Below, one piece after another: positions 10,729 through 29,794 of a stretch of DNA of 64,000 bases (position 1 is the stretch's first letter; the number at the start of each line of letters is the position of its first letter). Source of the DNA: Planctomycetia bacterium (lineage in GTDB: Bacteria; Planctomycetota; Phycisphaerae; UBA1845; UTPLA1); assembly GCA_015200345.1 (NCBI GenBank), contig CP054187.1:3208470-3272469 (forward strand). The letters run 5' to 3'. Position numbers and translations under genes: made by a program. The notes under the pieces were generated by a model. The model made no database searches and was not told the origin of the DNA. It was given only the letters and a program-made list of their open reading frames with translations.

Positions 10729-12353
10729 GACGCCGTCGCGGGCTGATTCTGGTCGTTGTGCTGGTGATGATCGCCCTGCTGTCGCTGCTGGCCGCGAGTT
10801 ACTCCTTCATGGTGCGCTCGTACACCGACGAGGTGAACTCGCAGCAGGCATCGTTCTACGCGCGCATGGCGGCCGAGAGCGGCATTCAACACGCCATCGT
10901 CGTGTTGCGGGCCTACCGAAACGATCCGACGGTGTGGTACGACAATCCCGCGGTATTTCGTGCCGTTCCGGTGACACCGACGCCCCGGCAGGCCGTGCAG
11001 AGTAACGAAGCCGTGAACAACAGTTACGATCCGAACGCGCCGCCCGTCTGGCGATTCAACCTCGTCGCGCCGAATCCGTATGAGCCGGCGACGGTGCGGT
11101 ACGGCGTGACGGATGAAACGTCTCGCCTGGACCTGAATCTCGCCAAGGAGGAACAGCTTCGTCGGCTGTTCGAGTACGCCATCCCGCAGGAGACGACGTC
11201 GCCGGTCGATGTGAACGTGCTGGTGGATTCGCTCCTGGACTGGCGGGAGAAGGGCGCCGTGCCGCGGCCCAACGGCGCGAAGGACGAATACTACGCCAAG
11301 CTGGAGCCGGGTTATCGCGTGAAGGGGGCGCGCTTCTCGACCATTGAGGAATTGCTGCTCGTCCGCGGGTTTAACGGCTGGGTTCTGTATGGCGAGGACT
11401 ACAACCAGAACGGCCTGCTCGACCCCAACGAGGATGACGGAGCGAACTCGTTTCCGCCGGACAACGGCGACGGCGTCCTGTACCCCGGCGTGGCGCCTTA
11501 TCTGACAATCTGGTCGTACGAAGCAAACCTCTCGCGCGACGGTCGGCCGCGCATCAACCTGAACATGAAGGACACGCAGAAATTGCAGGAAGCGCTGGAG
11601 GCGGAAATCCCGCCCCACCTTACCAGTTATATCATGGCGGTCCGCACCGGGGGGAAGGCCTTTAACAGTGTTATGAACCTGATCCCGGCACCCGAGCCGG
11701 ACGAGCTTCCGGAAGAAGAGGCCGCACAACCTGAAGACCCCGCGACAACACAGCCACAGGGGGATCCCGCCTCCTCCCAGCCGGGCGAAGAAAACCCGGC
11801 GAGCCAACCGAGTGAAAGTACCGATCAGGGTAGGTCCGAAAAGCAGGCAGCCGGTGCGCCGCCGGTGTTCAAGGATCTGACGCCGGAGCCGCCTCCGGGG
11901 ACGTATGAGGATCTCCCGTTGATCCTCGACCGGCTGACGACGGATGCGACGCCTGCGATGGCCGGGCGTATCAACGTGAGCACGGCGCCGTTGCCGGTGC
12001 TGGCTTCGATCGTGGAACTGACGGACGAGGAGGTTCAGGCGATTTTCGCGGCGCGGCAGCAACTGGATGCGGAGCAGTTGAGTACGCCGGCGTTTCTGGT
12101 GACGACGGGGTTGGTGAGTCCGTACAAGTTCCGGCGGATTCTCCCGAAGATCACCTCGTCCTCGGCGGTGTTCACGGTGGACGCGGTGGGTTATGGAGAT
12201 CACACAGGCGTGACGCAGCGAATCAAAGCGGTGTTGGAGATGCGCGGGCCAGTGGCCCAGGTGCGTTATTACCGCAATTTGAGCAGCTTGGGGACGGCGT
12301 ATCTGCCGCACGTGGTTGAGCAGCGCGCGCTGACCGGTCGAGGGGGGCGGTGA
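10725..12353 (+). CDS. gspK: GspK-like pseudopilus tip protein
   Basis: The 542-residue product starts RRRRGLILVVVLVMIALL, a prepilin-like helix without the +5 glutamate, which is a hallmark of GspK. The following SFYARMAAESGIQHAI helix, the DETSRLDLNLA segment near residue 130 and the GRINVSTAPLPVL segment near residue 415 match the GspK body. An EF-hand-like DYNQNGLLDPNEDDG near residue 225 may bind calcium, in line with the calcium site known in GspK. A low-complexity Pro/Gln/Glu/Ser insert (about residues 322-383) is unusual. It overlaps gspJ-like by four bases. Confidence 0.85.
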   Translation: MRRRRGLILVVVLVMIALLSLLAASYSFMVRSYTDEVNSQQASFYARMAAESGIQHAIVVLRAYRNDPTVWYDNPAVFRAVPVTPTPRQAVQSNEAVNNSYDPNAPPVWRFNLVAPNPYEPATVRYGVTDETSRLDLNLAKEEQLRRLFEYAIPQETTSPVDVNVLVDSLLDWREKGAVPRPNGAKDEYYAKLEPGYRVKGARFSTIEELLLVRGFNGWVLYGEDYNQNGLLDPNEDDGANSFPPDNGDGVLYPGVAPYLTIWSYEANLSRDGRPRINLNMKDTQKLQEALEAEIPPHLTSYIMAVRTGGKAFNSVMNLIPAPEPDELPEEEAAQPEDPATTQPQGDPASSQPGEENPASQPSESTDQGRSEKQAAGAPPVFKDLTPEPPPGTYEDLPLILDRLTTDATPAMAGRINVSTAPLPVLASIVELTDEEVQAIFAARQQLDAEQLSTPAFLVTTGLVSPYKFRRILPKITSSSAVFTVDAVGYGDHTGVTQRIKAVLEMRGPVAQVRYYRNLSSLGTAYLPHVVEQRALTGRGGR

Positions 12354-12355
12354 GG

Positions 12356-14203
12356 ATGGCGATCGGGCTTTCGAGCAAGAAGATCCTGGCGGTGGAATGG
12401 GACCTGCGCAGCATTCGGATGGTGCTGGCGCGGCCGAAGGCCGACGGGGTGGAGCTGCTGAAGGCGGTGTCGGCGCCGATTCCGTCGACGGTTTCGGCGG
12501 AGGACGCGGCGAGTCTGGGAGCATTCATCAAGGAGTCTATATCCAGTGCGCGGATCGGTGTAACCCGGGCGATTCTTTGTATTCCGCGTGATCAGGTGGT
12601 GCTGAATACGATCAACCTTCCACCGACGCCTGGGGAGGAGATGGCGGCGCTGGTGCAGTTCCAGGTGTCGAAGGAGCTGCCGTTTGCGGCGGAGCAGGCG
12701 GTGCTGGATTTCGCGGTGGCCGGAACGCACGATCCGAAGGCGCCGTGCAGCGTGCTGGCGACGGCGATCCGCCGGGAGCTGCTGGAGTTTTATCAGAACG
12801 TGGCGTCGGCCGCGGGGCTGACGATCGAGCGCGTGGGCCTGCGGCCGCTGGCGAACCTGATCGCGTTGACGGCGTCGACCGGCGGAACGGGTCCGGAGTT
12901 GACGCTGCTGGTGGACGTGGGTCCTCATCGAACGGAGATCGATCTGATCCGGGGCGGGGTGCTGGTGTTCTCGCGCGCGGCGTCGATGAGCGTGGGGATG
13001 GAGCCTGCGACGGTCAACGAGAGCGGCGAGGCGGACGGTACGGGCTATCAAGACAGTCGCATAATTTCCGGCGGCGTCGATCGCGATCCGGTCGAGGCGA
13101 ATCCGCAGGCGGTCAGCGCGCTGCTGGTGGAAGTGATTCGCTCGTTCGAAGCGTTTCGCGCGACGGAGCCGTCTGCGAGCCTGGATCGCATCGTCGTGGC
13201 GGGTTCGAGCGGCCTGGAGCCGCAACTGGCGCAGATGCTCGGAGCGCGGTTCGCGACGCGGGCGGAGCTGTTCAGCCCGGAGAAGGCGCTGGGTCTTTCG
13301 GCGGAGCGTGCGCGCGAGCTGCGGGGTTTCTGCGCGGCGTTGGGATTGGCGATCGGGCATTCGCACGATGAGCTGGCGTTGATTGACTTCCTCCACCCGA
13401 AGCGGCCCGTGACCAAGCGTGAGCTGCGACTGAAAAAAGTGCCGTCAGCCGTCATGGCGGCGATCCTGCTGATCGGATCGATCTATCTTTTTCAGACCAA
13501 GTACGTAGTGCCCCTGCGAGACGAGATTCGCGCGCTTGAAAAGGCCCAGTCGAAGTTGAAGGTCGAGGAGAAGCTGGTTCGGGAGTTCGCGGAGAAGGTG
13601 GACGCGTTGGAGGGCTGGATCGAGTCGGAGCAGCACTGGCCATCGGTGATCGCGGCATTGACGGCGGTGTTTCCTCCGGATCGGGAGGCTTACGCGACGC
13701 GGCTGGACCTGGAGTTGGTACCGGTTCGCAAGAGCGTGAAGCGCGAAGCGACGGCCAAGATCAAGTTTCGTACGGCGTCGCTGGGAACGGTGAACGAGCT
13801 GGCGGAGAAGCTTCGGGCGGCGGGGTTTGAGAACGTGGTTCCGGGCAAGGAGACGCCGACGGGCGGGCGCGACGTTTATCGGAACGACACGGGCATTGAT
13901 GCGATCGTGCCGCAGAAGAAATGGTCGGTCGTGTCGGCGACGGACGCAACGGGTGCGGGCGCGACGCAAGAAGAGGTGGCGCCGCCGGAGGCGGCGAGCC
14001 AGACGCCCGGGGCTTCGAAGGGCGAGCCTGCACGTTCGGGGAGTGGCTCGGCGAAGGAAAGCGCTGGATCGGGGCTGGATTCGGGGGCGGACGCGGTCAA
14101 GGCGGGTGGCGCGGGGAAGGCGGACGAGGTGAGACCGGGGGCGGCGGGTCGTGCCAATCTACCGTCACCGACGCGACCGCCGTCGACGGGGGGGCGATCA
14201 TGA
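12356..14203 (+). CDS. PilM-PilN (GspL-like) fusion, inner-membrane assembly platform protein
   Basis: The N-terminal ~350 residues form an actin-like ATPase-fold domain of the PilM/GspL cytoplasmic type (ILAVEWDLRSIRMVL at the start, LLVDVGPHRTEIDLI near 185). A single membrane helix near residues 364-380 (AVMAAILLIGSIYLF) is followed by a coiled coil and a PilN-like periplasmic ferredoxin-type domain, then a low-complexity Gly/Ala/Ser tail. Separate pilM and pilN genes are thus fused, as in GspL of type II secretion. It would couple the cytoplasmic ATPase to the periplasmic ring. ATG 12356 directly follows the gspK stop and has a GGTGAGG site; GTG at 12350 is the overlapping alternative. 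Confidence 0.82.
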   Translation: MAIGLSSKKILAVEWDLRSIRMVLARPKADGVELLKAVSAPIPSTVSAEDAASLGAFIKESISSARIGVTRAILCIPRDQVVLNTINLPPTPGEEMAALVQFQVSKELPFAAEQAVLDFAVAGTHDPKAPCSVLATAIRRELLEFYQNVASAAGLTIERVGLRPLANLIALTASTGGTGPELTLLVDVGPHRTEIDLIRGGVLVFSRAASMSVGMEPATVNESGEADGTGYQDSRIISGGVDRDPVEANPQAVSALLVEVIRSFEAFRATEPSASLDRIVVAGSSGLEPQLAQMLGARFATRAELFSPEKALGLSAERARELRGFCAALGLAIGHSHDELALIDFLHPKRPVTKRELRLKKVPSAVMAAILLIGSIYLFQTKYVVPLRDEIRALEKAQSKLKVEEKLVREFAEKVDALEGWIESEQHWPSVIAALTAVFPPDREAYATRLDLELVPVRKSVKREATAKIKFRTASLGTVNELAEKLRAAGFENVVPGKETPTGGRDVYRNDTGIDAIVPQKKWSVVSATDATGAGATQEEVAPPEAASQTPGASKGEPARSGSGSAKESAGSGLDSGADAVKAGGAGKADEVRPGAAGRANLPSPTRPPSTGGRS

Positions 14204-15837
14204 ACCAGCGTGAGCGGACGCTGTTGTTGGTGATCGGCGGGGCGGTGGGGCTGTACGTCCTTTACCAGTGCGTGAACTTTCTGTTCATTTCACCGGTCAC
14301 GGATTCCCGGAAGCGCATCGCCGAGTTGCGTGAGGAGAACGACCGGCTGGAGAACGTCGTGCGGCAGCGGCGTCGGCTGGTGCGTACGTGGCTCGACGCC
14401 GCGTCGAAGACGTTTTCCTACGATCGGGCGATCACGTCGAACCAGTTCGGCAAGAGTCTCAAAGAGGTCGCGCAGCGGCACGGGTTCGAGGCGGCGTTTT
14501 TCACGCCGGCGAGCGGGACGAAGATCGGCAACAAGACGAGCATCACGACCGTGGCGTATCGGATCGTGGCGGAGGGCCCGTTTGATCAGGCGCGGGCGTT
14601 GGTCAACGAACTGTATCGCACGCCGTACCTGTCGCAGATCACGAAGTTGAGCATGTCGCCCATTCAGATGAAGGGCCGGATGCGGGATGAGGTGAAACTG
14701 GAGCTGACGATCGAGACCCCGGTGCTGCCGGAGATCGACAAAAAAAAGATGCCGGATGCGGCGTTGGCCGTCACGATGGCGGAGGCGCACAAACCGGGCG
14801 AAACGCCGCCACCCCCGGCGCGCGAGGCGCTGCCCGATGAGGCGATGCAGGCGATCCTCGCAAAGCGAAACATCTTCAAGACCTTTCTTCCGCCGCCGGA
14901 GAACGTGGTGCTGATCGACAATCAGGATCTGAAGATGGTGGCGCTGAAGGTGACGTTCTTCTGGGAGGGCCAGGCCGAGGAGCCGATCGTCGAGACCGTG
15001 GCCGGCATGAGTCAGAAGCCCGTCAAGGGGATGGGCGATTCGGTGGAAGTGATGGGGTCGTACGCCGACGGCAAGGCGTTCGGTCCGGAGCGGCTGGACT
15101 TCAACGTGAAGAAAGAGTGGACGTACGTGGTGAAGTCTCACACGCCGCCGCCTCCGCCGGTGTACGTCGATCTGGCGGTGGAGAATGCGACGAAGGATCC
15201 GGTGGAGGTCGAGGTGACGGTGACCGGCGAGGACGGCAAGACGAAGACGCTCCCGACGATGCGGATCAAGCCGGGGCGGACGGACATTGACGAGTTCAAG
15301 GCGCAGCGCGTGGCGGTGACGGCGACGTATCCCTCCGGGAAGAAGCTGCCGGCGCGGTCGTATGTGCCGGGGGCCGGTAAGCAGACGTATGTCGTTCCGG
15401 TGGAGTCCGCGGAAGTGCGTGTGGAAGCGCCGGTTGCCGTAAATGACCCGCCGCCGGACGCGACCATGAGTGTATCAGGACTGGTGACCTATCAGGGCAC
15501 GCAGGAACTGATCGCGACGGGGGGTGCGACGCGAAAGATAATCCCGGCCGGGGCGCATGGCGCGGTGGACAGCGGCACGTTGCTGGCGGTGCATCCGCGC
15601 GGCGGCGTGGTGAAGATGCCGAGCGGGAATTACTACCTGTATCCGCTGGGCCGGAAGTTTTCGGAACGGGTGAAGCTGAATGCGCGCTCGGATGGGGATC
15701 TGGCGGCCGCGATCGACGCGTGGCTGGCGAGTCCGGAAGCGCAGTCGGATGGGGCAGAAGCTGTGCAATCGGCCAGTGCGGCGCCGCCGCCGACGCCGAT
15801 GACGCCGGCGGGCAAGGGTCTCGGGAGGAAACCGTGA
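14200..15837 (+). CDS. PilO/GspM-like inner-membrane protein with a GspC/PilP-like C-terminal part
   Basis: The frame is open upstream inside the previous gene, but the ATG at 14200 overlaps that gene's stop (ATGA) and gives a proper single-span membrane protein: a TM helix at residues 6-25 (LLLVIGGAVGLYVLYQCVNF), a charged coiled coil (30-65) and a ferredoxin-like domain as in PilO/GspM. Around residue 222 an AKRNIFKTF motif begins a beta-rich region with Pro-rich linkers, reminiscent of the homology region of GspC or PilP, which contacts the secretin N0 domain. The 545-residue length is about twice that of PilO. The fusion reading is inference. Confidence 0.68.
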   Translation: MNQRERTLLLVIGGAVGLYVLYQCVNFLFISPVTDSRKRIAELREENDRLENVVRQRRRLVRTWLDAASKTFSYDRAITSNQFGKSLKEVAQRHGFEAAFFTPASGTKIGNKTSITTVAYRIVAEGPFDQARALVNELYRTPYLSQITKLSMSPIQMKGRMRDEVKLELTIETPVLPEIDKKKMPDAALAVTMAEAHKPGETPPPPAREALPDEAMQAILAKRNIFKTFLPPPENVVLIDNQDLKMVALKVTFFWEGQAEEPIVETVAGMSQKPVKGMGDSVEVMGSYADGKAFGPERLDFNVKKEWTYVVKSHTPPPPPVYVDLAVENATKDPVEVEVTVTGEDGKTKTLPTMRIKPGRTDIDEFKAQRVAVTATYPSGKKLPARSYVPGAGKQTYVVPVESAEVRVEAPVAVNDPPPDATMSVSGLVTYQGTQELIATGGATRKIIPAGAHGAVDSGTLLAVHPRGGVVKMPSGNYYLYPLGRKFSERVKLNARSDGDLAAAIDAWLASPEAQSDGAEAVQSASAAPPPTPMTPAGKGLGRKP

Positions 15838-18800
15838 TGAACTCGCACACGAGACAGATTATTCGGCGCAGGGGTCGAGCGTGGATCGGCTCGGTCACGG
15901 CGATGATGCTCTCTTCCGCGGTTGCGATGGGGCAGGCAACGACGCAGCCGTCGAACGACGACGCGCTGGAAGCCGCGCGCCGCGCGGCGTTGCAATCGAT
16001 CAACCAGCCGGCTTCAACTCAACCGGCGACGACGCAGCCCGCGCCGTCGCAGCCGGCGATGCATCGCACGCCGCCGCCGGCCTCGACGGAGACGGCGAAA
16101 CTCGCCCCGAAGCCCGGGCCGGCGCAGCCGATGAGCGCGCCGACACACGGGGTTCAACCTTCGACCTGGCCGGCGACAATGCCTTCGCCGCGCGGGGTGC
16201 CGCCGGAGAATTTCAACGGAATGAGCGAAGGGGGTCGCGGCGGCGCAGGTCGGTCGCGCGGACCGGCCGGTTCGGGTGCGGGGTCGCGCGCGGGCGCGTC
16301 GCATTCCGGCGCGCCGGCGGCGGACCTGCCGAGGCTGGCAACGGGCGGTGCGTCATCCGCGCCGTCGGAGGAGGATGACGGGAACGCTCCGAAGACGATG
16401 ATGACGTTCACGGTGGCGCCGGTCGATCCGACGTCGCGATCGTACCGGTTTGATTACGTGAATACGCCGTGGAGCGACGTCCTGGGGGACTTCGCGCGAA
16501 TGAGCGGGTTGTCGTTCCTGAACCAGCCCGACCCGCCGATCTCGGACAACCTGACGTTTCACAGTCCGAAGACGTTTACCTATTCCGAAGCGATGGATCA
16601 GTTGAACGAGCTGCTGCTGGCGCGGCCGTTGAACAAGTACCTGATTCAGCGTGAGGGGAATTTCCTGACGATCAAGCGGCTGCCGGACCTGATGCGCGAG
16701 ATTCCGGCGGACAAGATGTTCGATTCGTTCGAGGCGATGGATCGCGCGAAGCCGGGCGAGTTCGAGATCGTGCTGGTGCAGTTCGACGTGCCGCAGGGTT
16801 GGAATCCGTACGAGATCATCGAGCGGTATCGGCCGTGGTTTTCGGATACGTACGGCACGCAGGTGAACGGCAACCGGATCGAGTTGACGGGTCTGGTGCG
16901 TGAGCATCGGCGGTTTCGGGATGTGGTGTCGACGATCACGACGATGCAGGAGCCGCCGCAGTTTGATCCGCGTCCGAGTCGGTTCATCAAGCTGGAACGG
17001 TCGAAGGCGTCGGACCTTCAGACGTTGTTGAGACAGGTGTATCCGGTGACCGCGCCGGCCATGCCTGGGCGGACGGGTCCGGGCGTGGACCAGACGGCCG
17101 AGACGGCGAAAAAGATCGACATCATCGCGGACCTTCGCAACAACGCGCTGCTGATCAAGGCGCCGCAGCGGATGCTGGACGAGATTGGTGAGTTGGTGGC
17201 GCGGCTGGACGCGGGCATTGGCCCGCAGACGCCCGAGATGAAGGTCATCAAGCTGCAATACGCGGACTCGAACGCGCTGACGACGAGCCTGAAGCAGATC
17301 TTCGCGAAGGAGCAGCAGGCGTTGTCGCGCGATCCGACGCTGTACGTCTCGCCGGAGCAACGCGCGGCGATGGATCGCGACATCTTCGCCGACCCAACCA
17401 CGAATTCGGTGATTCTTGTCGGCGGGGCCGAGGGCATCGCCGCGGCCGAGCGGACGGTGAAAGAGTGGGATGTGCCGTCGGAGAACCAGGTCAGCGAGGT
17501 GATCGAGCTGGCGCACGCCGAGGCTGCCCCGATTGCGGCACAACTGATGCAGATGTTCCCGCCGGTGGTGAAGCCGGGTCAGCCGGCGGATCGCGTGGTG
17601 GTACGGACGGCGAACTCGCTGCTGGTGATGGCGAGCCGTCAGAATTTGGATCGGATGAAGGAAGCGATCGAGAAGCTGGACGTGGCGGGGGATGAAGTGC
17701 AGGAACACGTGGTGAAGCTCAAAGCCGCGACGCCGAGCGTGGTGGCGACGGTCGTGCAGCAATCGATGATCGCGGTGCAGCAGGCGCGGGTGATTCAGGG
17801 CGCGGGTCGCGCGCCGGGTCAGCCCGGCCAGCCGGGCCAGCCGCCGCCGCCGACAGCGGGCGGGAGCGGACCGCGAATCATTCCGGATGATACGACGGGC
17901 ATGCTGGTGGTGTATTGCACGGAGAAGGAGTGGAAGCAGGTTGAGCCGCTGATTGATCGGCTGGATGAGCAGGCGGCGGCGGGGGAGGCCCGTCTGGAGC
18001 GGTTCGCGCTGGCGAAGGCGGACGCGGACGACGTGGCGGCGTTATTGAGACAAATGTATCCTTCTGCGCCGTCGCAGCCGGGTCGGGCGATGGGCGGTCC
18101 GTTCTTCTTTGCTGACGGGGTTCACAACACGGTGCAGGTGTATGGCGGCGCGGAACTGATCGAAAAAGTCAAACCGCTGATCGCGGCGCTGGATATCGAA
18201 TCCGACGCCGAGTTGACGATCATCCGCTTGAGCCATGCGCGGGCCGAGTCGATCGCGCCGATCCTGTTGCAGGCCGTGGGCGCGAAGGCAGGACCGGCGA
18301 TGGCGCCGGCGCAAGCGGGTCAGCCGCCGCGACCTGCCGGGGCCGCGCCGGGCGGGCAGGTACGGATTGTGGCGGAACCGATCACGAACGCGCTGCTGGT
18401 GCGCGCGCCGGTGAAGGAGCTGGAGCAGATCCGGAAGCTGGCGGCGGACATGGACTCCGAGGAGGAGGCGCGCACGGCGCGGGTCATCCTCGAAGCGAAG
18501 CATCGCGGCGCGGAGGAACTGGCGTCGGCGCTTCGCAACATGGTCGGCAGCGGGGCCGCGCGTCCGGCGGCGGCGCCGGGCCAGCCCGCGGCGCCGGCGG
18601 CTTCGAGCGGTCGCACGACGACGATTGTCACGTCCGGCCGGCAGATCGTGATCGACGGTCCGCGCGAGGAAGTGGCGAAGCTGATTCAGTTGCACGAACA
18701 GCTTGACGTGCCGTATGAGCAGCCGTTCTTCCGCAAGTACCTGGTCATGGATGCGGAGGAGGATGAGAAGAAGCTGCGCGCCATGCTGGCGATGACGCCG

Positions 18801-21800
18801 ACCGCATCGGCGAAGACGACGCCGGCGGCGGGGGGCGGCGGTGCGCCGGCGAAGCCGGCCGCGGCCGTGAGCCTGGCGGCGCCGGACGCGGTGACGATCT
18901 ATGCGGACACGTACGAGAATGCGTTGCTGATCGGCGTGAAGGTGGAGAGCGATTTCGACACGATCGAGCGGCTGCTGGGTCTGGTGTTCGCCGACGCGCG
19001 GAAGATCGAGGGCGGTCCGGAGGACAGCACCGGCGGCAAGTCGTATTTCACGATCGAATTGAAGCATCGCAAGGCGTTCGACATCGCGTTCGATATTGAA
19101 GATTTGCTGAATCCGGATCGCAAGAGCAGCGGGATCAGCCTGTCGGAAGGACCGAGCGAGCGGACGCTGCTGGTGCAGAACTGCAAGCCGGCGCAGCGCG
19201 AGCAGGTCGAAGAGATGGTGAAGATGTGGGATGTGCCCAAGCGTGGTCAGAGCGGGAAGATCCGCATCATCGACTCAAAGATTCCGCCGGCGGCGATGGC
19301 GAAGCTGCTGGAGCGGAACCGGCCCGAGGGCATGAAGCTGACGATTCAAGGCGCGCTGGACACGAGCGCGGTTCAGTTGATCGACATTCACGCGGACGAG
19401 CCGGAGGAGGAAGCCGCGCCGGCGCCGGCAGCGACCGAGCGGCGCAGCGAGGGCGGGGGGCTGTCGCCGTGTGTGCTGCCGGCGAGTTTGTTGAATGCGA
19501 TCGGCGCGGCGGCGGCGGGGCAGGTCGTGGCGAACCGGCCGCTGTACATCTCGCATCCGAAGGATTGTTCGTTGTGCCGTCAACATGCGTGCGCGTTGCC
19601 GGGGGCGTTGGCGAATTCGCTGACGCAGGTGATTTATACATCGTTCGATGATCCACTCTACGACGACGTGGATGCGCAGCAGGATTCGTCCGCAATGCAG
19701 CCGGAGCAGGAGGCGCCGCAGCACAATCACGCGAAGCCGGCGGAGAAGCCCGCGGAACCGGTCGCCACGCCGCCGTCGCGCGCCGTCGGCCGCCGCGAGA
19801 TTGCGCAACCGGCCGTGCAGACGCCGGAGCAGGTGATCGGCAAGGCGATGGAGGAGCAGGGCGTCACGATCACGGTCGATCCCGACACGAACAAGCTGAT
19901 TCTCCAGGGGCCGGAGGAGATGTTGGACGAGCTGGAGGATTTAATCGAGGAACTGCTCGAAGGCGACACGACGCCGGTGATCCGAGTGTTCCCGCTGAAG
20001 TATGCGGATGTCACAACAGCGGCACAACTGCTGGAGCAGGTGTTCAACCAGGGCCAGGCGGCGCTGACGAAGGGCAAGGGCAAGGCGGCGCAGCCCCAAG
20101 CCGTGCCGATGCCGCAGCCGCAGCCCGGGCAGCCGGGTCAACCGGGTCAGCCTGGCCAGCCGGGTCAGGTCGGCAAACAGCCACCGCAGCAGATGATGGT
20201 GCAGCAGGCGCCGGCTCGGATCAAGGTGGTGCCGGATACGCGGACGCGAAGCCTGATGGTGATTTCGCCGCCGCAGGACGTACCGCTGATCGTGGACGTG
20301 TTGAAGAAGATCGACAAGCGTGTACCTCCGGCCGAGGGCACGCTTAAGATTTTTGCGCTGGTGAATCTCGACGCGACGCAGATGGCGGAGAACCTGCGAG
20401 AGATATTCAGCCTGCCGTCGGCGCGTGGCGGTCGGGGCGGCGGTCGCGGCGGTCAGCCGGGTCAGCCGCAGACGCCGGAGCAGGTGCAGCAACAGATCAT
20501 TCAGATGCAGGGCGGTCAGCCGGGTCAACCGGGCCAGCCGGGTCAGGCCATGGGCGCGACGCTCTCCTCGACGGACAACCTGAAGATCAGTGCGGATGCG
20601 CAGACGAACAGCATCATTGCGCAAGGTCCGCCGGACGTTCTGGAGATGATGGAGGGGATCATCAAGGACCTGGAAGAGAAAACCAACACGACCAAGCCGG
20701 AGATGCGTCGCGTGGCGTTGAAGAATGCGCGGGCGACGGAGATCGCGACGATCGCGAAAGAAGTCTCCGCGGCAACGGCCAATCAAGGCGGCGGGCAGGG
20801 TGGCCGGGGCGGCGGACGCGGCGGCCAGGTATCGGTGACGGCCGATGCGCGGACGAACAGCGTGATCGTCGCGGGGCAGACGAAGGACGTAGACCGCGTC
20901 GAGAAGATCGTGATGGACCTGGATGTCACGTCGGCCGGCAGCGCGATCCGTCAGTTTTCGGTGAAAGGGGACGCGGCGGCGATCGCGAACCAACTCAAGG
21001 CGGTTTTCATCTCCAGCGGCGCGCAACAGGACATCGTGATCAACGGCGATCCTGGCAGCGGCATGGTGATCGTGAAGGCGGCCGAGCCGCAGATGAAGGA
21101 GATCGAGGAACAGATCAAACTGCTGGAAGAACGGATCGGCATCACGGCGGAGTTTCGCACGATCAAGGTGAACGTGGCCGACGCGGAGGCGATTGCCCCG
21201 AGGATTCAGGAGATTTTCCGGGAAGTTCGCACGACGCGCGGCGGCAAGGCGAATGTGAAGATCAACGGCAGCAAGAGCGCGGGGATGCTGTACGTGCTCG
21301 GCGCGGATCAGGATGTGTTCGATCAGATCAAGAAGGTGGCGGCCGACATGGACGTGGCGCCGACGGGGATGGAAGTCCGGCGGTTTGATTTGAAACACGC
21401 CAACGCCGTGGACATCAACAACAAGCTGACGGAGATGATGATGAAAGCGGCGGCGACGGGCGCGATGGGCAACGTGAAGCTCGATCTCGTCGGCGTCGTA
21501 CCGGATGCGCGAACGAATTCGCTGATCGTAACGGGCGGACCGATCACGTTCGGCCTGATCGGCAAAGTGCTGGGCGAGATCGACGTGGCGAGTGACAGCG
21601 GGATGAAGAATCACTTGTACGCGGTGCAGCACGCGCGGGCGAGCGATCTGGCGAACGTGCTGAACAATCAGCTTCGCAATACGAAGGTACCCGTTCCTGG
21701 GCAACCGTTTCCGGTGATGATCTCGCCGGACGACGCGAGCAACACGCTGGTGGTGACGGCGTCGGATTCGGATTACACGGAAGTGGAAAGCCTGATCAAG

Positions 21801-24800
21801 TCGCTCGACGTGAAGGGGCTGTCGGAGGGGGCGCGTGAGCGCAAGACGTTCAAGCTAAATTACGCCGATCCGTGGAGCGTGGCCAACGCGGTGCGCGTGT
21901 CGTTTCAGACGGTCAATCGCAATCCGACGGTCCGCGAGCAGGTGTCGGTCGCGGAGGACGGCACGACGAACAGCGTGATCGTGACGGCGTCAAAGGAGAA
22001 CATGGAACAGATAGCGACGCTGATCGCTGAACTGGATAAATCCAGCGACGCACGGGCGGAGTACGTGATCGACATCGCCAACACGAACCCACAGGACGTG
22101 GCGCAGACGCTGCAACAGATTTTTGACGCGCAGAACGCCGGGCGGCGACAGCGGTCCAGCGCGACGATCCGAGCGGTTGCGGGCAGCGCGAAGATCGTGT
22201 GCTTCGCCAATGAGACGGAGTACAAGCAGATTACCAACCTGGTGAAGATGATCGACAACGTGGAGGGCGGGCGAAGCGTTCACACGGTGACGATGCCGGA
22301 GCTGGTGCCGGCCAAGACGGTGGCGGAGAACATCAACAAACTGTTCGGCACGGCGGCGGGCGGCGGGCGCGACGGCGTGAAGGCCGAGTATCACGAGCCG
22401 ACGAACACGCTGCTGGTGTTCGCATCGGACGCGGAGTTCGAGAAAGTCAACAAGCAGGTGATCGAGGTCGTATCGAAGACGCCGACGGTGGGAGCGCTGA
22501 AGTTCTTCAAGATACCGCTGAAGTTCGCCGTGGCCGACGAGGTGGCCAAGACGTTGCAGGAGTTCTTCGACAAGAAGAGCGGGATCAACCGGGGCCGTGC
22601 GAACCTGCCACCGTGGATGGGCGGAGGGTCAACGGCCCAGCAGATGGACAACCAGGTGACGATCACGGCGGAGACGACCGGCAACATGCTGTTGGTGTAT
22701 TGCACCGAGACGACGAAGGAGTTGATCGACGGGATCATTGCGGACATCGACACCGACGCGCCACAGGGCGGGCGCACGATGGAGATGGTGGCCCTGAAGT
22801 ACATGGATGCCGCCGAGATGATCGGGATTCTGACGGAGTATCTGAAGGTCTCGAAACGCTCGTCGCCCGACGAAGGCCAGCGGTTCATTCCGTGGTGGAT
22901 GGACGGCCGCGAGGAGAAGAAGGACGACAAGGCGGTGCTGGCGGGCGACCTGCGGCTCAAGGCGGTGGAGAGCCTGAACGCGGTGATCGTGGCAGGCCGG
23001 CCCGAGGGGGTCGAGGACGCGGTGAAGAAGATCAGGGAACTGGACGTGGAGCGGCCGGACGATTCGAGCGCGCCGCAGACGATCAAGCTGGCGCACGGCA
23101 ACGCGAGCGAAATCGCTAACACGCTGAACAACGTGTTCAACGATCCGAAGCGGCAGCAGGATAAGTCGCGCGGCGGGTCGTATTCCAAGCCGCCGACGAT
23201 TGTCGCGGACAACGCGACGAATAGCGTGATCGTTTGGGCGAAGGCGAACGATCTGTCGCAGATTCGCAAGATGATCGACAACATCGACAGCCAGATGGAA
23301 GGCGCGACGGGTGAGGTGCGGATTCTCCAGGTGCCGGCGGGTCAGAACGTGGACAATCTGGCACGGCTGGTCGAGCGGCAGTTGAACGACGCCGAGCGCA
23401 ATCGCCAGCAGGTGCAGAAGGATTACAAGCCGGACCTCGTGAGCATCGGGGCCGAGCCGTGGGCCAGCGCGCTGCTGATCTCCGGATCGAAGGGCAAGTA
23501 CGAGGAAGCCGAGCGGATCGTGAAGACGCTCGTCGCGATGGGGCCTGCCGGCGGGACGTCGCGGAAGCTGATCAAATTGAGTGGTCAACTGACGCCGCAG
23601 CAGGCGAAGCAGATCATCGATAGCGTGCAGGGCGGCCAGTCGAATCAGGGCGGCCGGAGCATGGGCGGCAATCGCGGCGGGCGCGGCGATGGCGGCGGGC
23701 GTCGGCGAGATGGCGGGGGCGATCGCGGTCCGCGTGGCGATGCGACGTGGACGCAGCAACGGCGCTACGAGAAGAGCCTGGGCTTGCCCGCGCGGCGAAG
23801 TTCCATTGTCGCGGCGACGGTGCAGGGAATTCTGTTGAACCTGTCGGTGGCGGCGGCGATGGGACAGTTGCCGCCGGGCTACGAGTCGATGCCGACGGTG
23901 CGGCCTTCGGCGGATCTTCTGGCGCAGGCCGACTCCGAAGAGGACGGATCCGAACAGGCGTCGGCGGGTCGCAGTGGTTCAACCGGTGCAGCGAATCAAT
24001 CAGCGACGACGCAGGCGACGCAGCCCGTGGTGGGTCGCGTTCGCCCGCGTGCTGCGGCGACGCAGCCCGCGGAGAAGAAACCGGCGACGGCGGTGCGACC
24101 CGTGGCCCGGCCCGTGCCGACGACGCAGCCTGCACAAGGCTTGACGGCCAAGCAGATGATCCAGTCCGCTGCGCAGCAAGGCGTCGATATGTCGCAGATG
24201 ACCGAAGCGGCGCAGGAGGCATTCAGTCGCAAGTTGAGCGGCGCGCCGATCACGGCGGTGGAGGCGGGCGAGGAAGGCATCTTCATCGAGGGATCGGATG
24301 AAGACATCGAAGTGATCGAAGCGTTGTTGCAGATGCTGGATCGGTCGATCCCCGGCAAGGAGATCGAATACGTCCCGTTGAAGAACTCGCAGGCGAAGAG
24401 CCTCGCGGAGACGCTCAAGAAAGTATTTGAACCTTTGCAGCAACGAGGCACCCGGCCGGTGAAGCCGGAAGACAAGGTCGATGTCATCGCCGATCCGAAC
24501 ACGAACGGGCTGTATATCGCGGCGACGGCGGAGAAGATGGCGCAGGTGCTGCGGCTGATCGAGCAGAACGAAGAAGCCGCGAAGGTGACGGTGCGCAACG
24601 TCAAGACGTATCAATTCCGCAATCGCCGCGTGCTGGAAGTCGGCGAGGTGCTCGGGAAGATCATTGACAAGTATCTGTCCCAGCGCGGGCTGGACAAGAA
24701 CGTGATTCAGATCGAGACCGATCCGCAGACGAACTCGATCAGCATCATCGCGGGTGAGACCGATCTGAAGTTCGTCGAGGGCATCATCAAGGGACTGGAC

Positions 24801-27800
24801 GCCGAGCCGGAGCCGGTGGACAAGGACGGCCGCCTGTCGGTGGGCGAGGCCGACGTGATGATCATCCCGCTTCGCGTGGCGAAGGCGGATGCCCTGGGCA
24901 CGCTGCTGAATGAGATTCTCAAGAAGGCGGCGACGGGCGACACGCCGATGAAGGATTTCATCCGGCGGTTCAACCTGCTGGACGAGAACGGGAATCGGCT
25001 GCAACAGGTGAATCTGGACCGCCCGGTGGTGATCTTCGGCGACAAGGACAGCAACTCGCTGGTCGTGGCCAGTACGAAAGAAAACTGTCTGATTATGAAG
25101 CAGGTGGCGGCGGCGTTCGACGTGGAGCCGGCGCGGGCCGAAGTCATCAGCCAGGTCGTGACGCTGAAGTTCGCCGATGCGTCGGAAGTGGCCGAGCAGG
25201 TCACGAAATTGCTGACGGACAGCCAGAACCTGACGGCGCGGCCGGGCCAAAGTGAAAAGAGCGGCGCACCGGACGGCGAGGCGGGCGCGTTGGTGTACAA
25301 CGCGGTGGTCATGGCGGACATGCGGTCGAACCAGTTGGTGGTGGTGGGTCGACCGTCGTCGGTGAAGATTCTGACGGGGCTGGTGGAGCGTCTGGACGTG
25401 AAGGGGCTGGACGTGATGCCCTTTCAGATCGTGGCGCTGGAGTACGCGAACGCCGGGTCGCTGGAGACGGCGCTGACGGCGCTGATGAAGGAACGTGCCG
25501 AAGCGTTGCCGACGGGCAAGAGCGAGAACGCGAAAAAGGCGGAGACGGTGATCATCAAGGGCGATCCGCGGTCGCGGTCGCTGATCATCGCGGCGAAGGC
25601 GGCGCGGATGGAGGAGCTTCGCGCGTTGATTCGGCAGTTGGACAAGCCGGCGACGGCGCTGGTGGAGGACATCCGCACGATCACGCTGAAGCATGGCAGC
25701 GCGGGCGATTTGGCGACGAAGCTGACGGATTTGTGGAAGGAGCGCGCCGCGCAGCAGGAAGAGGGCGGGAAGGGACTGAAGCTGGAGACGCCGGCGATCG
25801 TGGCGGACGAGCGGAGCAATTCGCTGATCGTGGCGGCGAGCAAGGGCGATTTCGACGCGATCAAGGCGGTGGTGGACAAGATCGAAGCGCTCGAGCTGAA
25901 CCCGATGGCGAAGATTCAGATCATCACGCTCAAGCACGCCTCGGCGACGACGCTGAAGACGGCGTTCACATCGCTGTTTGAAAAGCGCGCGGAGATGCGA
26001 ACGGTGGACGGCAAGAGCCGGCCGGAGGACAAGGTCGCGATCGAAGTGGACGACGTGAGCAACTCGCTTCTGTTCGCGGGGTCGCAGGAGAATTTTGACC
26101 TGTTGAAGCAGAAGACGGCCGAGCTGGACGTGGAGATGGTCGCGCCGGGGGTGGTGGAGTATTTCGTTTGTGAGAACGTCGGCGCGCAGCGGGTGAAGGA
26201 GACGATCGACGAACTATTCAAAGAGGGGGTGTATCGGCCGGGGGGAGCGCGGGAGACCGAGGCGCTGAAGGCGCGCGAGAAGGTGGTGGTGACGATCGAC
26301 ACGCGGGCGAACATCCTGATCGTGTCGGCGGCGCCGGAGAACATGGAAGTCATTCGCGAGATTCACAAGCGGATGAACAGCGTGACGACGCCGTGGGACG
26401 TGGCGATCACGCGATTGATTGACATTCAGCACGGCGATTCGGTGAAGATCGCGGCGCAGGTGAATGATTATTTCGACAAATTGAAGGAAGTTCGCAGCGA
26501 GGGCGAAGGCGGCGACAAGAAAGCCGGTGGATTCGGCATCACGATCTTCGCCGACGAGCGCAGCAATCGCGTGGTGATCGGTGGGACGAAGGACGGCATC
26601 GACAGCGCCGTCGAGCTGGTGAAGAAGCTCGATGTCCCCCCGGGAACGCCGGGTCAGGTGATGGAGGTGTATCGCCTCACGGACGCCTCGGCGACGCGAA
26701 TCGGTGAGATGATCAAGAATGTCTTCGAGCAGCGCAACAAGCCGCGCGAGGGGGATACGGGCACAAAGGTGGCGAGCGTGCCGGTGACGATTGAAGCGAA
26801 CACGACGACAAACAGCCTGCTGGTGAACGCTTCGCGCGAGGATCACATCCTGATCAAGGATCTCGTGGAGCGGCTGGACCGGCCGTCGACGGTGGCGGAG
26901 ATGACGCGGGTGGTTCCGCTGGAGAAGGCGCCGGCGGCGAGGGTGAAGGAGATTCTCGAGGAGTTGTACAAGGGCGGCACAGGCGGCGGCGAAGGCAGCA
27001 GCGGCGGCGGTGGGCAGTCGATTGCGGTTGTTGAAGACAAGCGTACGAATTCCGTCGTGGTGACGGCTCCGCCGGGAGAGCTGGACAACATCACGAAGCT
27101 GGTGCAGCGGCTGGACGAGACCGAGGTGAAGGGCCAGGTCGAGGTTGGGGTGATCGCGGTTGAGAACGAAGACGCCAAGAAGATGGCGGAGCTGCTGAAT
27201 GCGGTCATCACGGGCAAGGGCGGGCCCGAAGGCAGCACCGAGGCGGCCGGCGGCGACGATGCGGCGACGCGGGATATTTCGTCCACGTTGATTACGTTTG
27301 GCGACAAGGACTTCCGCGGTCGGGAGATTCTGATCCGCACGATGCGCGAGAACGTGCAGATCACGTACAACGAGCGGACGAACAGCATCGTGGCGGTGGC
27401 GCCGCCGCAGGCGCTGCGACTGATTGAGTCCCTGGTTCGCAAACTGGATCGGATTCAAAAGCGAGCGGTGCTGGTGAAGGTCTTCCCGTTGAGCTATGCC
27501 GATGCGACGAAGATGGTGGACTTGTTGAATGACATGTTCGCCCAGGAAGAAGGCGCCGAGGATCAGCGTGCGTTTCAGGAAGGCCGATCCATCAGCGTCG
27601 AAGGAGGTTCGAGCAGCACGGCGGGCGTGCCGACGGCCGGTTCGCAGACGGGCGGCACGACGAAGGGCACGTTCGGCCGGCCGAAGACGACGTTCGTTCC
27701 GGATGAGCGGACGAACAGCGTGATCGTCGCAGGCTGGCCCGAGGACATCGACGTTGTGGCGGATGTGATCGACCAGCTCGACAGCCTGCCGATCAACGAG

Positions 27801-29120
27801 CGTGAGAATTTTGTCTATTCATTGAACAACGCGACGGCGGAGGACGTGCAGTCTGCGATGGAGGCGTTCTTCAGTGCGGAGAGCCAGCGGCTGGACACGC
27901 TGGGCGATTCGGTCTCGCCGCAGCGACGGATGGAGCAGGAAGTGTCGGTCGTGGCGCACCCGGAGTCGAATCAGCTCATCGTATCGGTCAGCCCGCGCTA
28001 CAAGGACAAAGTCATGACGGTGATGGAGCAACTGGATCGGCCGCCGCCGCAGGTGATGATCCAGGTGATGATCGCCGAAGTGTCGCTGGATGATCGCTTT
28101 GAGATGGGACTGGAGTTCGCGCTGCAGGAATTGAAGTTCAGCGAGACGGCCGTTCCCGGCGGCAACGGCGTGCTGCAAAGCAGCCACTTCGACGTGGTCG
28201 GCGGCACGGACCTCGGCGCGGCCGGCAGCGGGCTGGGCGGGTTCTCGTTCACGATTACGGGTGAGGATTTCAATTTCCTCGTGCGCGCGCTTCAGGCCGA
28301 CAGCCGGCTGGAAGTGATTCAGCGGCCGATGATCATGTGCCAGGACAATCAGCAGGCGCAGATTCTGATCGGCCAGCAGGTGCCGATCCCGCAGGGGACG
28401 TCGAGCTTCGCGGGTCAGGTGAACACGGCGGTGAGCTATCAGGAAGTCGGCGTGATTCTGCGGGTCGAACCGCACATCAACCCGGATGGATTTGTCTATA
28501 TGCTCGTCGAGCCGGAGATCTCGTCGCTGACGGACTCGACGATTCAGATCGCTCCGGGTTCCTTCGCGCCGATCATCAACACGCGCAACGCATCGACGAG
28601 CGTGGCGGTGAAGGACGGTGAGACGGTCGTGATCGGCGGGTTGATCACCACGACGGAGAATCAGGCCGAGAGCAAGGTTCCGGTGCTGGGAGACATTCCC
28701 GGTTTGGGCATGCTGTTCCGCACGACGACGCGGCGAAAGAACAAGACGGAGTTGCTGATCGCGATGACGCCGCGCGTGGTGCGCACGGTGGAGGATGCGC
28801 GACGGATCAGCATCGAGGCGCGGGATATCTCCGGTTTGATCACGCCCGAGATGAAGCAAAGCCCGCTGATGGACAAGTTGCAGGTCAAGCCGGAGACGCC
28901 GTTCGAGGTGGAGGACATCGATCTCGCGCCGGATCTGGAGCCGGGCATCGAGCCGGTGCGTTTCGAGGGGCCGAGCGGCGAGCCGGAGGATCGGAAACCG
29001 TCGCAACCGAAGCCGCGCTACGGTCCGCAGGTGCCGCGGTACGGCCCGATGGTGCCCAGTGGCGAGGAGATTGTCGCGCGGCGAACGGCCGATCGCGCGG
29101 CAGCGGGGGTGAGCGAATGA
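15837..29120 (+). CDS. Giant secretin (GspD/PilQ superfamily), about 4,427 residues with about 39 N-type repeats
   Basis: Outer-membrane secretin of the secretion operon. ATG 15837 overlaps the previous stop (TGATG), has GGGAGGA upstream, and gives a signal peptide ending AVAMGQ. Layout: N0/STN-like domain (about 189-300); first block of N1/NolW-type repeats (about 382-1190); linker with cysteines (about 1200-1290); second block (about 1379-2600); linker with a second signal-like segment (about 2639-2678); third block (about 2842-4065); secretin pore domain (about 4066-4322) with SRLEVIQRP, GQQVPIPQG, VAVKDGETVVIGGLI and VPVLGDIPGLGMLFR; and a short tail. Each repeat has a beta strand, an ADA/ASD-type helix and a closing DxRTNSLIV(T/A)-type strand before a helix ending in LD. 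Usual secretins have one to four such domains. No frameshift or stop breaks the 13.3 kb frame. Confidence 0.93.
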   Translation: MNSHTRQIIRRRGRAWIGSVTAMMLSSAVAMGQATTQPSNDDALEAARRAALQSINQPASTQPATTQPAPSQPAMHRTPPPASTETAKLAPKPGPAQPMSAPTHGVQPSTWPATMPSPRGVPPENFNGMSEGGRGGAGRSRGPAGSGAGSRAGASHSGAPAADLPRLATGGASSAPSEEDDGNAPKTMMTFTVAPVDPTSRSYRFDYVNTPWSDVLGDFARMSGLSFLNQPDPPISDNLTFHSPKTFTYSEAMDQLNELLLARPLNKYLIQREGNFLTIKRLPDLMREIPADKMFDSFEAMDRAKPGEFEIVLVQFDVPQGWNPYEIIERYRPWFSDTYGTQVNGNRIELTGLVREHRRFRDVVSTITTMQEPPQFDPRPSRFIKLERSKASDLQTLLRQVYPVTAPAMPGRTGPGVDQTAETAKKIDIIADLRNNALLIKAPQRMLDEIGELVARLDAGIGPQTPEMKVIKLQYADSNALTTSLKQIFAKEQQALSRDPTLYVSPEQRAAMDRDIFADPTTNSVILVGGAEGIAAAERTVKEWDVPSENQVSEVIELAHAEAAPIAAQLMQMFPPVVKPGQPADRVVVRTANSLLVMASRQNLDRMKEAIEKLDVAGDEVQEHVVKLKAATPSVVATVVQQSMIAVQQARVIQGAGRAPGQPGQPGQPPPPTAGGSGPRIIPDDTTGMLVVYCTEKEWKQVEPLIDRLDEQAAAGEARLERFALAKADADDVAALLRQMYPSAPSQPGRAMGGPFFFADGVHNTVQVYGGAELIEKVKPLIAALDIESDAELTIIRLSHARAESIAPILLQAVGAKAGPAMAPAQAGQPPRPAGAAPGGQVRIVAEPITNALLVRAPVKELEQIRKLAADMDSEEEARTARVILEAKHRGAEELASALRNMVGSGAARPAAAPGQPAAPAASSGRTTTIVTSGRQIVIDGPREEVAKLIQLHEQLDVPYEQPFFRKYLVMDAEEDEKKLRAMLAMTPTASAKTTPAAGGGGAPAKPAAAVSLAAPDAVTIYADTYENALLIGVKVESDFDTIERLLGLVFADARKIEGGPEDSTGGKSYFTIELKHRKAFDIAFDIEDLLNPDRKSSGISLSEGPSERTLLVQNCKPAQREQVEEMVKMWDVPKRGQSGKIRIIDSKIPPAAMAKLLERNRPEGMKLTIQGALDTSAVQLIDIHADEPEEEAAPAPAATERRSEGGGLSPCVLPASLLNAIGAAAAGQVVANRPLYISHPKDCSLCRQHACALPGALANSLTQVIYTSFDDPLYDDVDAQQDSSAMQPEQEAPQHNHAKPAEKPAEPVATPPSRAVGRREIAQPAVQTPEQVIGKAMEEQGVTITVDPDTNKLILQGPEEMLDELEDLIEELLEGDTTPVIRVFPLKYADVTTAAQLLEQVFNQGQAALTKGKGKAAQPQAVPMPQPQPGQPGQPGQPGQPGQVGKQPPQQMMVQQAPARIKVVPDTRTRSLMVISPPQDVPLIVDVLKKIDKRVPPAEGTLKIFALVNLDATQMAENLREIFSLPSARGGRGGGRGGQPGQPQTPEQVQQQIIQMQGGQPGQPGQPGQAMGATLSSTDNLKISADAQTNSIIAQGPPDVLEMMEGIIKDLEEKTNTTKPEMRRVALKNARATEIATIAKEVSAATANQGGGQGGRGGGRGGQVSVTADARTNSVIVAGQTKDVDRVEKIVMDLDVTSAGSAIRQFSVKGDAAAIANQLKAVFISSGAQQDIVINGDPGSGMVIVKAAEPQMKEIEEQIKLLEERIGITAEFRTIKVNVADAEAIAPRIQEIFREVRTTRGGKANVKINGSKSAGMLYVLGADQDVFDQIKKVAADMDVAPTGMEVRRFDLKHANAVDINNKLTEMMMKAAATGAMGNVKLDLVGVVPDARTNSLIVTGGPITFGLIGKVLGEIDVASDSGMKNHLYAVQHARASDLANVLNNQLRNTKVPVPGQPFPVMISPDDASNTLVVTASDSDYTEVESLIKSLDVKGLSEGARERKTFKLNYADPWSVANAVRVSFQTVNRNPTVREQVSVAEDGTTNSVIVTASKENMEQIATLIAELDKSSDARAEYVIDIANTNPQDVAQTLQQIFDAQNAGRRQRSSATIRAVAGSAKIVCFANETEYKQITNLVKMIDNVEGGRSVHTVTMPELVPAKTVAENINKLFGTAAGGGRDGVKAEYHEPTNTLLVFASDAEFEKVNKQVIEVVSKTPTVGALKFFKIPLKFAVADEVAKTLQEFFDKKSGINRGRANLPPWMGGGSTAQQMDNQVTITAETTGNMLLVYCTETTKELIDGIIADIDTDAPQGGRTMEMVALKYMDAAEMIGILTEYLKVSKRSSPDEGQRFIPWWMDGREEKKDDKAVLAGDLRLKAVESLNAVIVAGRPEGVEDAVKKIRELDVERPDDSSAPQTIKLAHGNASEIANTLNNVFNDPKRQQDKSRGGSYSKPPTIVADNATNSVIVWAKANDLSQIRKMIDNIDSQMEGATGEVRILQVPAGQNVDNLARLVERQLNDAERNRQQVQKDYKPDLVSIGAEPWASALLISGSKGKYEEAERIVKTLVAMGPAGGTSRKLIKLSGQLTPQQAKQIIDSVQGGQSNQGGRSMGGNRGGRGDGGGRRRDGGGDRGPRGDATWTQQRRYEKSLGLPARRSSIVAATVQGILLNLSVAAAMGQLPPGYESMPTVRPSADLLAQADSEEDGSEQASAGRSGSTGAANQSATTQATQPVVGRVRPRAAATQPAEKKPATAVRPVARPVPTTQPAQGLTAKQMIQSAAQQGVDMSQMTEAAQEAFSRKLSGAPITAVEAGEEGIFIEGSDEDIEVIEALLQMLDRSIPGKEIEYVPLKNSQAKSLAETLKKVFEPLQQRGTRPVKPEDKVDVIADPNTNGLYIAATAEKMAQVLRLIEQNEEAAKVTVRNVKTYQFRNRRVLEVGEVLGKIIDKYLSQRGLDKNVIQIETDPQTNSISIIAGETDLKFVEGIIKGLDAEPEPVDKDGRLSVGEADVMIIPLRVAKADALGTLLNEILKKAATGDTPMKDFIRRFNLLDENGNRLQQVNLDRPVVIFGDKDSNSLVVASTKENCLIMKQVAAAFDVEPARAEVISQVVTLKFADASEVAEQVTKLLTDSQNLTARPGQSEKSGAPDGEAGALVYNAVVMADMRSNQLVVVGRPSSVKILTGLVERLDVKGLDVMPFQIVALEYANAGSLETALTALMKERAEALPTGKSENAKKAETVIIKGDPRSRSLIIAAKAARMEELRALIRQLDKPATALVEDIRTITLKHGSAGDLATKLTDLWKERAAQQEEGGKGLKLETPAIVADERSNSLIVAASKGDFDAIKAVVDKIEALELNPMAKIQIITLKHASATTLKTAFTSLFEKRAEMRTVDGKSRPEDKVAIEVDDVSNSLLFAGSQENFDLLKQKTAELDVEMVAPGVVEYFVCENVGAQRVKETIDELFKEGVYRPGGARETEALKAREKVVVTIDTRANILIVSAAPENMEVIREIHKRMNSVTTPWDVAITRLIDIQHGDSVKIAAQVNDYFDKLKEVRSEGEGGDKKAGGFGITIFADERSNRVVIGGTKDGIDSAVELVKKLDVPPGTPGQVMEVYRLTDASATRIGEMIKNVFEQRNKPREGDTGTKVASVPVTIEANTTTNSLLVNASREDHILIKDLVERLDRPSTVAEMTRVVPLEKAPAARVKEILEELYKGGTGGGEGSSGGGGQSIAVVEDKRTNSVVVTAPPGELDNITKLVQRLDETEVKGQVEVGVIAVENEDAKKMAELLNAVITGKGGPEGSTEAAGGDDAATRDISSTLITFGDKDFRGREILIRTMRENVQITYNERTNSIVAVAPPQALRLIESLVRKLDRIQKRAVLVKVFPLSYADATKMVDLLNDMFAQEEGAEDQRAFQEGRSISVEGGSSSTAGVPTAGSQTGGTTKGTFGRPKTTFVPDERTNSVIVAGWPEDIDVVADVIDQLDSLPINERENFVYSLNNATAEDVQSAMEAFFSAESQRLDTLGDSVSPQRRMEQEVSVVAHPESNQLIVSVSPRYKDKVMTVMEQLDRPPPQVMIQVMIAEVSLDDRFEMGLEFALQELKFSETAVPGGNGVLQSSHFDVVGGTDLGAAGSGLGGFSFTITGEDFNFLVRALQADSRLEVIQRPMIMCQDNQQAQILIGQQVPIPQGTSSFAGQVNTAVSYQEVGVILRVEPHINPDGFVYMLVEPEISSLTDSTIQIAPGSFAPIINTRNASTSVAVKDGETVVIGGLITTTENQAESKVPVLGDIPGLGMLFRTTTRRKNKTELLIAMTPRVVRTVEDARRISIEARDISGLITPEMKQSPLMDKLQVKPETPFEVEDIDLAPDLEPGIEPVRFEGPSGEPEDRKPSQPKPRYGPQVPRYGPMVPSGEEIVARRTADRAAAGVSE

Positions 29121-29794
29121 AACGCCGAAACGTCGAACCGAAATCAAGCCGAAATGCCGGTTCTTCAGGAAGTCGAAACTGCGTATCGAAAGCTTTATTG
29201 ATCCGCGGAACACCAATCGCCTGCGCGTTGGCGTGTCTGATTGGATCGCTGCCGGGGTGCATGCAACCGGTGGAGCCGGGGGTGACGACGTCGTTCAGCG
29301 CCGCGACGTCGAAAGGGGACGATCGCGAGCCACCGGTGGAGTCGAACATAGTCCGCGTGACGAAGTTTTTCAGCGCCGAGCCGTGGCTGTCGTTCTCGAA
29401 TGATGGGACGAGCCGCGTGAACGGATTCAAGTGTTCGGTGTTTCTGGAAGGGCCTGGCAAGCCGCGCGGCGTGTTTGGTTCGGGAACGATCATCGTGTGC
29501 CTGTATCGCGTGGATCGCGATGGCGCCGGTCACGAGGTGGCGGTGCCGCTCCAGGAGTGGGAACTGCCGCCGGACCAGGCGTATCCGTGGCGCTGCAAGG
29601 AGCGCACGCTGCTGGGCTGGGGCTACGGTCTGCGACTGCAATGGCGCGATGATCTCGACTTGGAAGGCAAACAGATCGCGGTCGTGGTGAAGTACATCCG
29701 CGACGACGGCAAGACGCTTAGTTCGACGCGGCAGATGTTGAAAGTGCCGCGACGTGGCACGCAGATGCTGACGGTGCAACCGCAGAAGACGTAA
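29117..29794 (+). CDS. Lipoprotein encoded at the end of the secretin operon
   Basis: The 225-residue product has an unusually long basic leader, a hydrophobic helix (ALLIRGTPIACALACLIGS) and a lipobox-like LPGC near residue 50, so it should be lipidated and anchored in a membrane. The mature part is a beta-rich domain without cysteine motifs. It overlaps the giant secretin by four bases (ATGA), so it is made with it. A secretin pilotin or a periplasmic accessory would fit that position, but I see no sequence similarity to known pilotins. Confidence 0.7.
   Translation: MKRRNVEPKSSRNAGSSGSRNCVSKALLIRGTPIACALACLIGSLPGCMQPVEPGVTTSFSAATSKGDDREPPVESNIVRVTKFFSAEPWLSFSNDGTSRVNGFKCSVFLEGPGKPRGVFGSGTIIVCLYRVDRDGAGHEVAVPLQEWELPPDQAYPWRCKERTLLGWGYGLRLQWRDDLDLEGKQIAVVVKYIRDDGKTLSSTRQMLKVPRRGTQMLTVQPQKT

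Follow-up and report, generated by a model that had tools for sequence, protein, structure and literature searches.

A giant GspD-type secretin with about forty predicted ring-building domains in a type II secretion operon of Phycisphaerae

The N domains of secretins are ring-building motifs and differ in number from one machine to another; the N0 domain attaches to the platform in the inner membrane (PMC10550240). The secretins of type II secretion systems (T2SS), GspD/PulD/XcpD (PDB 5wq7, 6hcg, 5zdh, 3oss), are proteins of 600–800 aa with an N-terminal N0, three N1-type domains (N1–N3) and a double-walled pore, encoded next to gspK-L-M. Described secretins possess a few ring domains each, and the six of Thermus thermophilus PilQ were called unusual. 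The latter protein of 757 aa, engaged in type IV pilus formation and DNA uptake, has extra N domains and builds a longer stack of six rings (350 Å), said to span most of the wide periplasm (PMC5745081). DR_0774 of Deinococcus radiodurans (PDB 8co1) is a GspD/PilQ-like chain with several N domains, but it has only 740 aa and no array of the size reported here.

The window analyzed in this work (64,000 nucleotides of the planctomycete contig CP054187.1, positions 3,208,470 to 3,272,469) encodes a secretin of 4,427 aa with approximately 41 domains. Its gene is a single open frame at 15837..29120 on the plus strand, as are all features below unless stated otherwise, and runs from ATG to stop through 4,427 codons without an internal stop. 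The Pfam profile PF00263 (Secretin) matched residues 4151–4316 with 171.1 bits (cut-off 27.5) over its full length of 1–169, and the NCBIfam profile TIGR02517 (type_II_gspD) gave 1,047 bits against a cut-off of 351, a sum inflated by 18 matching stretches, the best of which covers profile positions 237–600. With a C-terminal PF00263 pore above the cut-off and PF03958 domains ahead of it, the protein belongs to the secretin superfamily. TIGR02517, an N-terminal N0 recognized by structure and the adjacent T2SS genes place it with the T2SS GspD proteins, from which it departs by having about forty ring domains in place of N1-N2-N3, an approximately thirteen-fold difference. Judged by profile matches and gene order, its gene is gspD in a type II secretion operon with the conserved order I-J-K-L-M-D-lipoprotein.

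The operon begins with two genes for putative pseudopilins, GspI/XpsI-like (8875..9864; weak NCBIfam XpsI match, E 0.001) and GspJ-like (9886..10728; PF11612, E 0.0019, under the cut-off), followed by gspK (10725..12353; PF21687 T2SSK, 42 bits, over the cut-off), a gene for a GspL/PilM-like platform protein (12350..14203; PF11104 PilM_2, 63 bits) and a gspM-like gene (14200..15837; NCBIfam GspM_XpsM, E 7e-4). The ATG of the secretin gene overlaps the gspM stop (TGATG) and the next gene begins within the secretin stop at 29117; these overlaps make the start and the operon credible, and the genes are probably translationally coupled. Genes for GspL and GspM precede the array across the class. 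GspF and additional pseudopilins are encoded elsewhere in the genome, at unlinked loci, and the E/F part thus stands apart from the secretin operon. The genes plsX, fabH, fabD, fabG and fabF of fatty-acid synthesis (3186-8684) lie directly upstream of the operon.

The GspM-like protein has an extra conserved C-terminal domain (approximately 15376-15732), possibly similar to the HR domain of GspC/GspB. Its profile matches were weak: GspC (7oio) appeared with E 0.21, ranked under unrelated carbonic anhydrases, and T2SSB was matched with E 0.004 in one of the 42 members only. This domain may be HR-like; HR is the usual partner of N0, and the GspM-like protein is accordingly a candidate N0 partner. 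Downstream of the secretin gene lies a gene for a lipoprotein of 225 aa (29117..29794) with the lipobox LPGC in a motif like VRVNKFFSQTPWLSF and no Pfam match to a known family. In both Phycisphaerae and Planctomycetia, almost all long secretin genes are immediately followed by a homologue, and next to the ordinary secretin paralogues of the present genome the search gave none; the lipoprotein is a good candidate for a pilotin or assembly factor. A further secretin paralogue (L051, G000:C1:3053378) is unusual in its length of 989 aa, and the profile detected no N domain in it. Just beyond the operon there are a gene for a VKOR-DsbA fusion (29934-31253), a disulfide-forming enzyme encoded close to a giant periplasmic protein that is poor in cysteine, and, on the opposite strand, a gene for a TPR/YfiO-like outer-membrane lipoprotein (31306-32442, minus strand).

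The protein starts with a predicted signal peptide, RRRGRAWIGSVTAMMLSSAVAMGQ (15837..15935), recognized by its positive n-region, hydrophobic core and A-x-G-Q end; homologues show a like layout. The N0 domain (residues 206-288; 16452..16700) had no match in Pfam or among PDB sequences and was revealed by structure alone: the model (pLDDT approximately 90) superposes on the N0 of GspD in the GspC–GspD crystal structure (3oss_D) with Z 10.2 and rmsd 1.7 Å over 77 residues. A profile made for N0 found one match near the N terminus in nearly all full-length homologues. Neither this domain, nor the operon of T2SS genes, nor the split homologues described below were part of the original prediction, which had counted by eye about 39 N domains in three blocks ahead of a pore at about residues 4066-4322.

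That count proved accurate. Pfam PF03958 (Secretin_N) gave 31 separate above-threshold stretches with 1,011 bits in total, and an HMM iterated on the protein itself detected exactly 39 N1/NolW-type domains and none in 20 shuffled copies; NolW domains are hence many, not few. One more domain with the beta-alpha-beta-beta-alpha pattern (approximately residues 311-370) lies ahead of the first profile match and is visible only in the predicted structure, so that the modeled total is likely N0 plus 40 N domains. The three blocks were recovered as residues 311-1145 (16767..19271; nine domains by profile and the one seen in the AF2 model), 1286-2580 (19692..23576; 15 domains) and 2770-4080 (24144..28076; 15 domains). 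Linkers of about 140 and 190 aa separate the blocks, and all remaining gaps between domains are of 11 aa at most; with a median of −1 aa over 3,146 gaps, the blocks are essentially linker-free. The pore occupies residues 4081-4330 (28077..28826), at the C-terminal end as predicted, and its model matches the GspD, XcpQ and ExeD pores with Z 13-15. Overall, the modeled folds agree with N0, N1–N3 and the pore of GspD; these are AF2 monomer models with pTM of 0.34-0.38, in which single-domain folds are readable and domain-to-domain geometry is not.

The frame is equally undivided in the congener (97% identical in the pore region), in some 20 further genomes of the order, of which several are single-contig, and in other families. 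In the comparison with the congener G001, dN/dS was 0.066 for N0, 0.092, 0.098 and 0.072 for the consecutive N blocks and 0.012 for the pore, and it was well below 1 across the junctions, which indicates that the whole frame is under purifying selection. Reciprocal-best matches between single domains were all colinear (38/38 with L017, 32/32 with the more distant L018 and 32/32 with L020). Domains at orthologous positions are approximately 30-80% identical between species compared with approximately 30% among the domains of one protein, and most are closer to their cross-species counterpart than to other domains of their own chain. Every position is therefore an old, separately maintained domain, and by these sequence comparisons the array is ordered and not turning over, differing from adhesin-type repeats that grow and shrink. 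A recent repeat expansion at the DNA level was rejected on the same identities and on TRF, which detected only short low-complexity tracts.

A search for long homologues in Planctomycetota showed that the giant is no exception. It is present in all family-mates whose contig spans the gene, at 4,261-5,207 aa and with 36-45 domains, and also in f4, another family of the order (4,144-4,916 aa where complete, single-contig genomes included), while the f3 copies are truncated. Across the class, which public records name Phycisphaerae, many families but not all have single-frame arrays of 20-61 N domains in 2,381-6,169 aa; the longest (L136 in G079) has 61 N domains, N0 and the pore in one frame of 6,169 aa. 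Nearly all complete arrays combine one N0 close to the N terminus with one C-terminal pore. In the phylum-wide sample, no frame outside Phycisphaerae exceeded 1,413 aa among the matches listed. A focused look at Planctomycetia found frames of up to 2,442 aa, seven of them (1,318-2,442 aa) with 5-9 detected domains. These medium-long secretins (Gemmataceae-/Pirellulales-like; L119, L120, L184-L190; 1,200-2,440 aa) share with the giant the pore family, the downstream lipoprotein and, in most cases, an N0 detected by profile, but have only 5-9 detected N domains. The number of N domains thus forms a graded series from three in GspD through 5-9 in Planctomycetia to 20-61 in Phycisphaerae, the counts in distant members being lower bounds as the profile was derived from the 4,427-aa protein.

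Some families of this order divide the array between adjacent genes, two in f5, f6 and f8 and three in f2. Each of the separate proteins starts with its own signal peptide, and where the arrays are complete, the first gene usually carries N0 and the last one always carries the pore. The three blocks of the giant correspond, in the same order, to such neighboring genes (borders matched by eye). Among the families, block 3 shows the highest conservation and is never separated from the pore; against the separate secretin genes L040, L041, L048 and L049 its reciprocal best matches were nearly all in order. In the pore tree, most families were recovered as clades, as fits mostly vertical descent. 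The fused f1 and f4 lie among the split families and the outgroups are fused, hence the fused or split state changed several times. Splits at other places were seen in L160 and L159 (G180, G254; f24), with 12-15 N domains encoded by the first gene and 24 N domains plus the pore by the second. Ordinary-sized secretins may also be divided, as in L125 and L126 (Kiritimatiellaeota/Pedosphaera), with an N0+N protein of 558-607 aa and a pore protein of 402-430 aa.

Both junctions of the giant retain traces of such borders. Junction 1 (residues 1146-1285; 19272..19691), taken to include the end of ancestral gene 1, is an otherwise disordered-looking linker with a conserved Cys/Leu-Pro motif (CVLPASLL...CSLC..HAC / CVLPASLL ... 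CPICHQSPC.LP), which is kept in most family-mates and has a dN/dS of 0.047; the C-terminus of the separate gene 1 of L049/L050 aligns there by eye. Junction 2 (residues 2581-2769; 23577..24143) is laid out as the Gly/Ser/Arg-rich end of ancestral gene A, a signal-peptide-like segment and a TTQP-rich linker leading to the first domain of gene B. The segment, RRSSIVAATVQGILLNLSVAAAMGQ (residues 2653-2677; 23793..23867), may be a fossil of gene fusion or a processing mark. Among the family-mates examined, junction 2 contained no conserved internal start codon or Shine-Dalgarno sequence, and a separate internal translation start is therefore unsupported.

We consider it moderately probable (about 60%) that the giant is the secretin of a type II secretion-like machine whose N rings are stacked into a long, N0-docked vestibule through a deep periplasm. 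In its periplasmic part, three N1-type ring-building domains would have expanded to about forty. After export, N0 would sit at the GspL/M platform of the inner membrane, with the HR-like tail of GspM as a candidate docking partner, and the C-terminal pore would lie in the outer membrane, probably delivered there by the adjacent lipoprotein. By analogy, about 12-15 copies would form the oligomer with one ring per N domain, the rings would stack into a continuous vestibule, and the pseudopilus would push folded exoproteins, the presumed substrates, across a periplasm of far more than usual depth. With a ring formed by every domain, the stack would measure approximately 100 nm or more and weigh several MDa; 25-40 Å per ring (our estimate, with the upper value from PilQ) multiplied by 40 gives about 100-160 nm. 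We hold at somewhat less than even odds the fuller version, in which rings are formed by all of the approximately 40 N domains (relatives have up to 61) and stack into a conduit of more than 100 nm across a deep or invaginated periplasm. The conduit would be made of one giant chain or, in sister families, of two or three proteins stacked in trans, one on the next, and its pseudopilus would be equally long.

The split families provide the strongest argument for stacking over a covalent tether: with N0 on one protein and the pore on another, the assembly of the pieces has to be non-covalent and ordered. The near absence of linkers within the blocks and the positional orthology agree with a ring stack, and T. 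thermophilus PilQ is a precedent, although it belongs to a type IV pilus and DNA uptake machine and has six rings. Counting against the stack, T2SS N-modules show flexibility in isolation, and how they are arranged in rings is a matter of debate (PMC10550240); moreover, the two junction linkers and the Gly/Gln/Pro-rich loops of the giant could be flexible as well. A greatly enlarged periplasm is documented for planctomycetes in Planctomycetia, not in Phycisphaerae (PMC5394234). A link to crateriform structures was dropped, since the described Phycisphaeraceae reportedly have none (PMC8882080).

The flexible tether or cage considered in the original prediction has lost ground. In its present form, rings would be confined to N domains near the pore, in part or all of block 3, with blocks 1 and 2 as bead-strings or a loose cage tethering N0 at a variable distance. 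The long low-complexity junctions, the conservation of block 3 together with the pore and the dynamics of isolated N-modules speak for such an arrangement, but f2, f5, f6 and f8 encode blocks 1 and 2 in genes of their own, and a covalent tether cannot consist of separate proteins. Moreover, f10, f17, f18, f24 and other families have 30-60 N domains with long linkers few or absent, and strict positional orthology and linker-free blocks are at odds with loose strings, so that we regard partial ring formation as unlikely, if the most serious of the alternatives. The chain might also be a polyprotein cut after export at one or both junctions into two or three ring proteins, present in equimolar amounts, like those of the split families. 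The hydrophobic core and A/G-x-A/G-Q end of the segment at junction 2 are preserved in every f1 giant examined while the flanking linker diverges, and junction 1 keeps xGQ/AQ ends next to its motif. Yet the junctions of the f4 giants are eroded and mostly less hydrophobic, nothing conserved would permit separate translation, and, by reasoning, access of signal peptidase I to an internal signal peptide with no preceding stop-transfer segment is not straightforward; we find such processing improbable.

Hardly more probable is a PilQ-like secretin of a type IV pilus or competence machine that builds a long surface fiber and does not secrete proteins. The GspL-like gene does score best as PilM, and pilus secretins can be long, as in T. 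thermophilus, but the pore scores higher as GspD than as PilQ (NCBIfam), and the operon holds gspK, GspI/J-like pseudopilin genes and a gspM-like gene. As for an assembly or sequencing artefact joining separate genes, which was foreseen as one of the ways to overturn the original prediction, the array really is separate genes in some relatives; the recurrence of the frame in independent and single-contig assemblies and purifying selection along its whole length, junctions included, leave this explanation practically no room. The secretin of a T2SS-like machine with stacked N rings remains our preferred reading.

In the searched literature, outside which most subscription papers and all preprints fell, no description of a giant or long secretin, or of a planctomycete T2SS of such kind, was found. 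The architecture, predicted to be new, indeed lies far beyond the solved and described secretins that we found; it is not a one-off, and recurs across the class. If the stacking model is true, the arrays of 20-61 domains would be among the longest envelope-spanning channels known, and would raise the question of how a pseudopilus piston works over 100 nm or more. The coexistence of split and fused versions is a natural experiment on the stacking of secretin N rings in trans. Together with the graded series, the array may serve as a molecular ruler relating channel length to periplasm depth in planctomycetes. The envelope of these bacteria is unusual and has long been debated, and the array would make both this question and the ring-stacking model directly testable.
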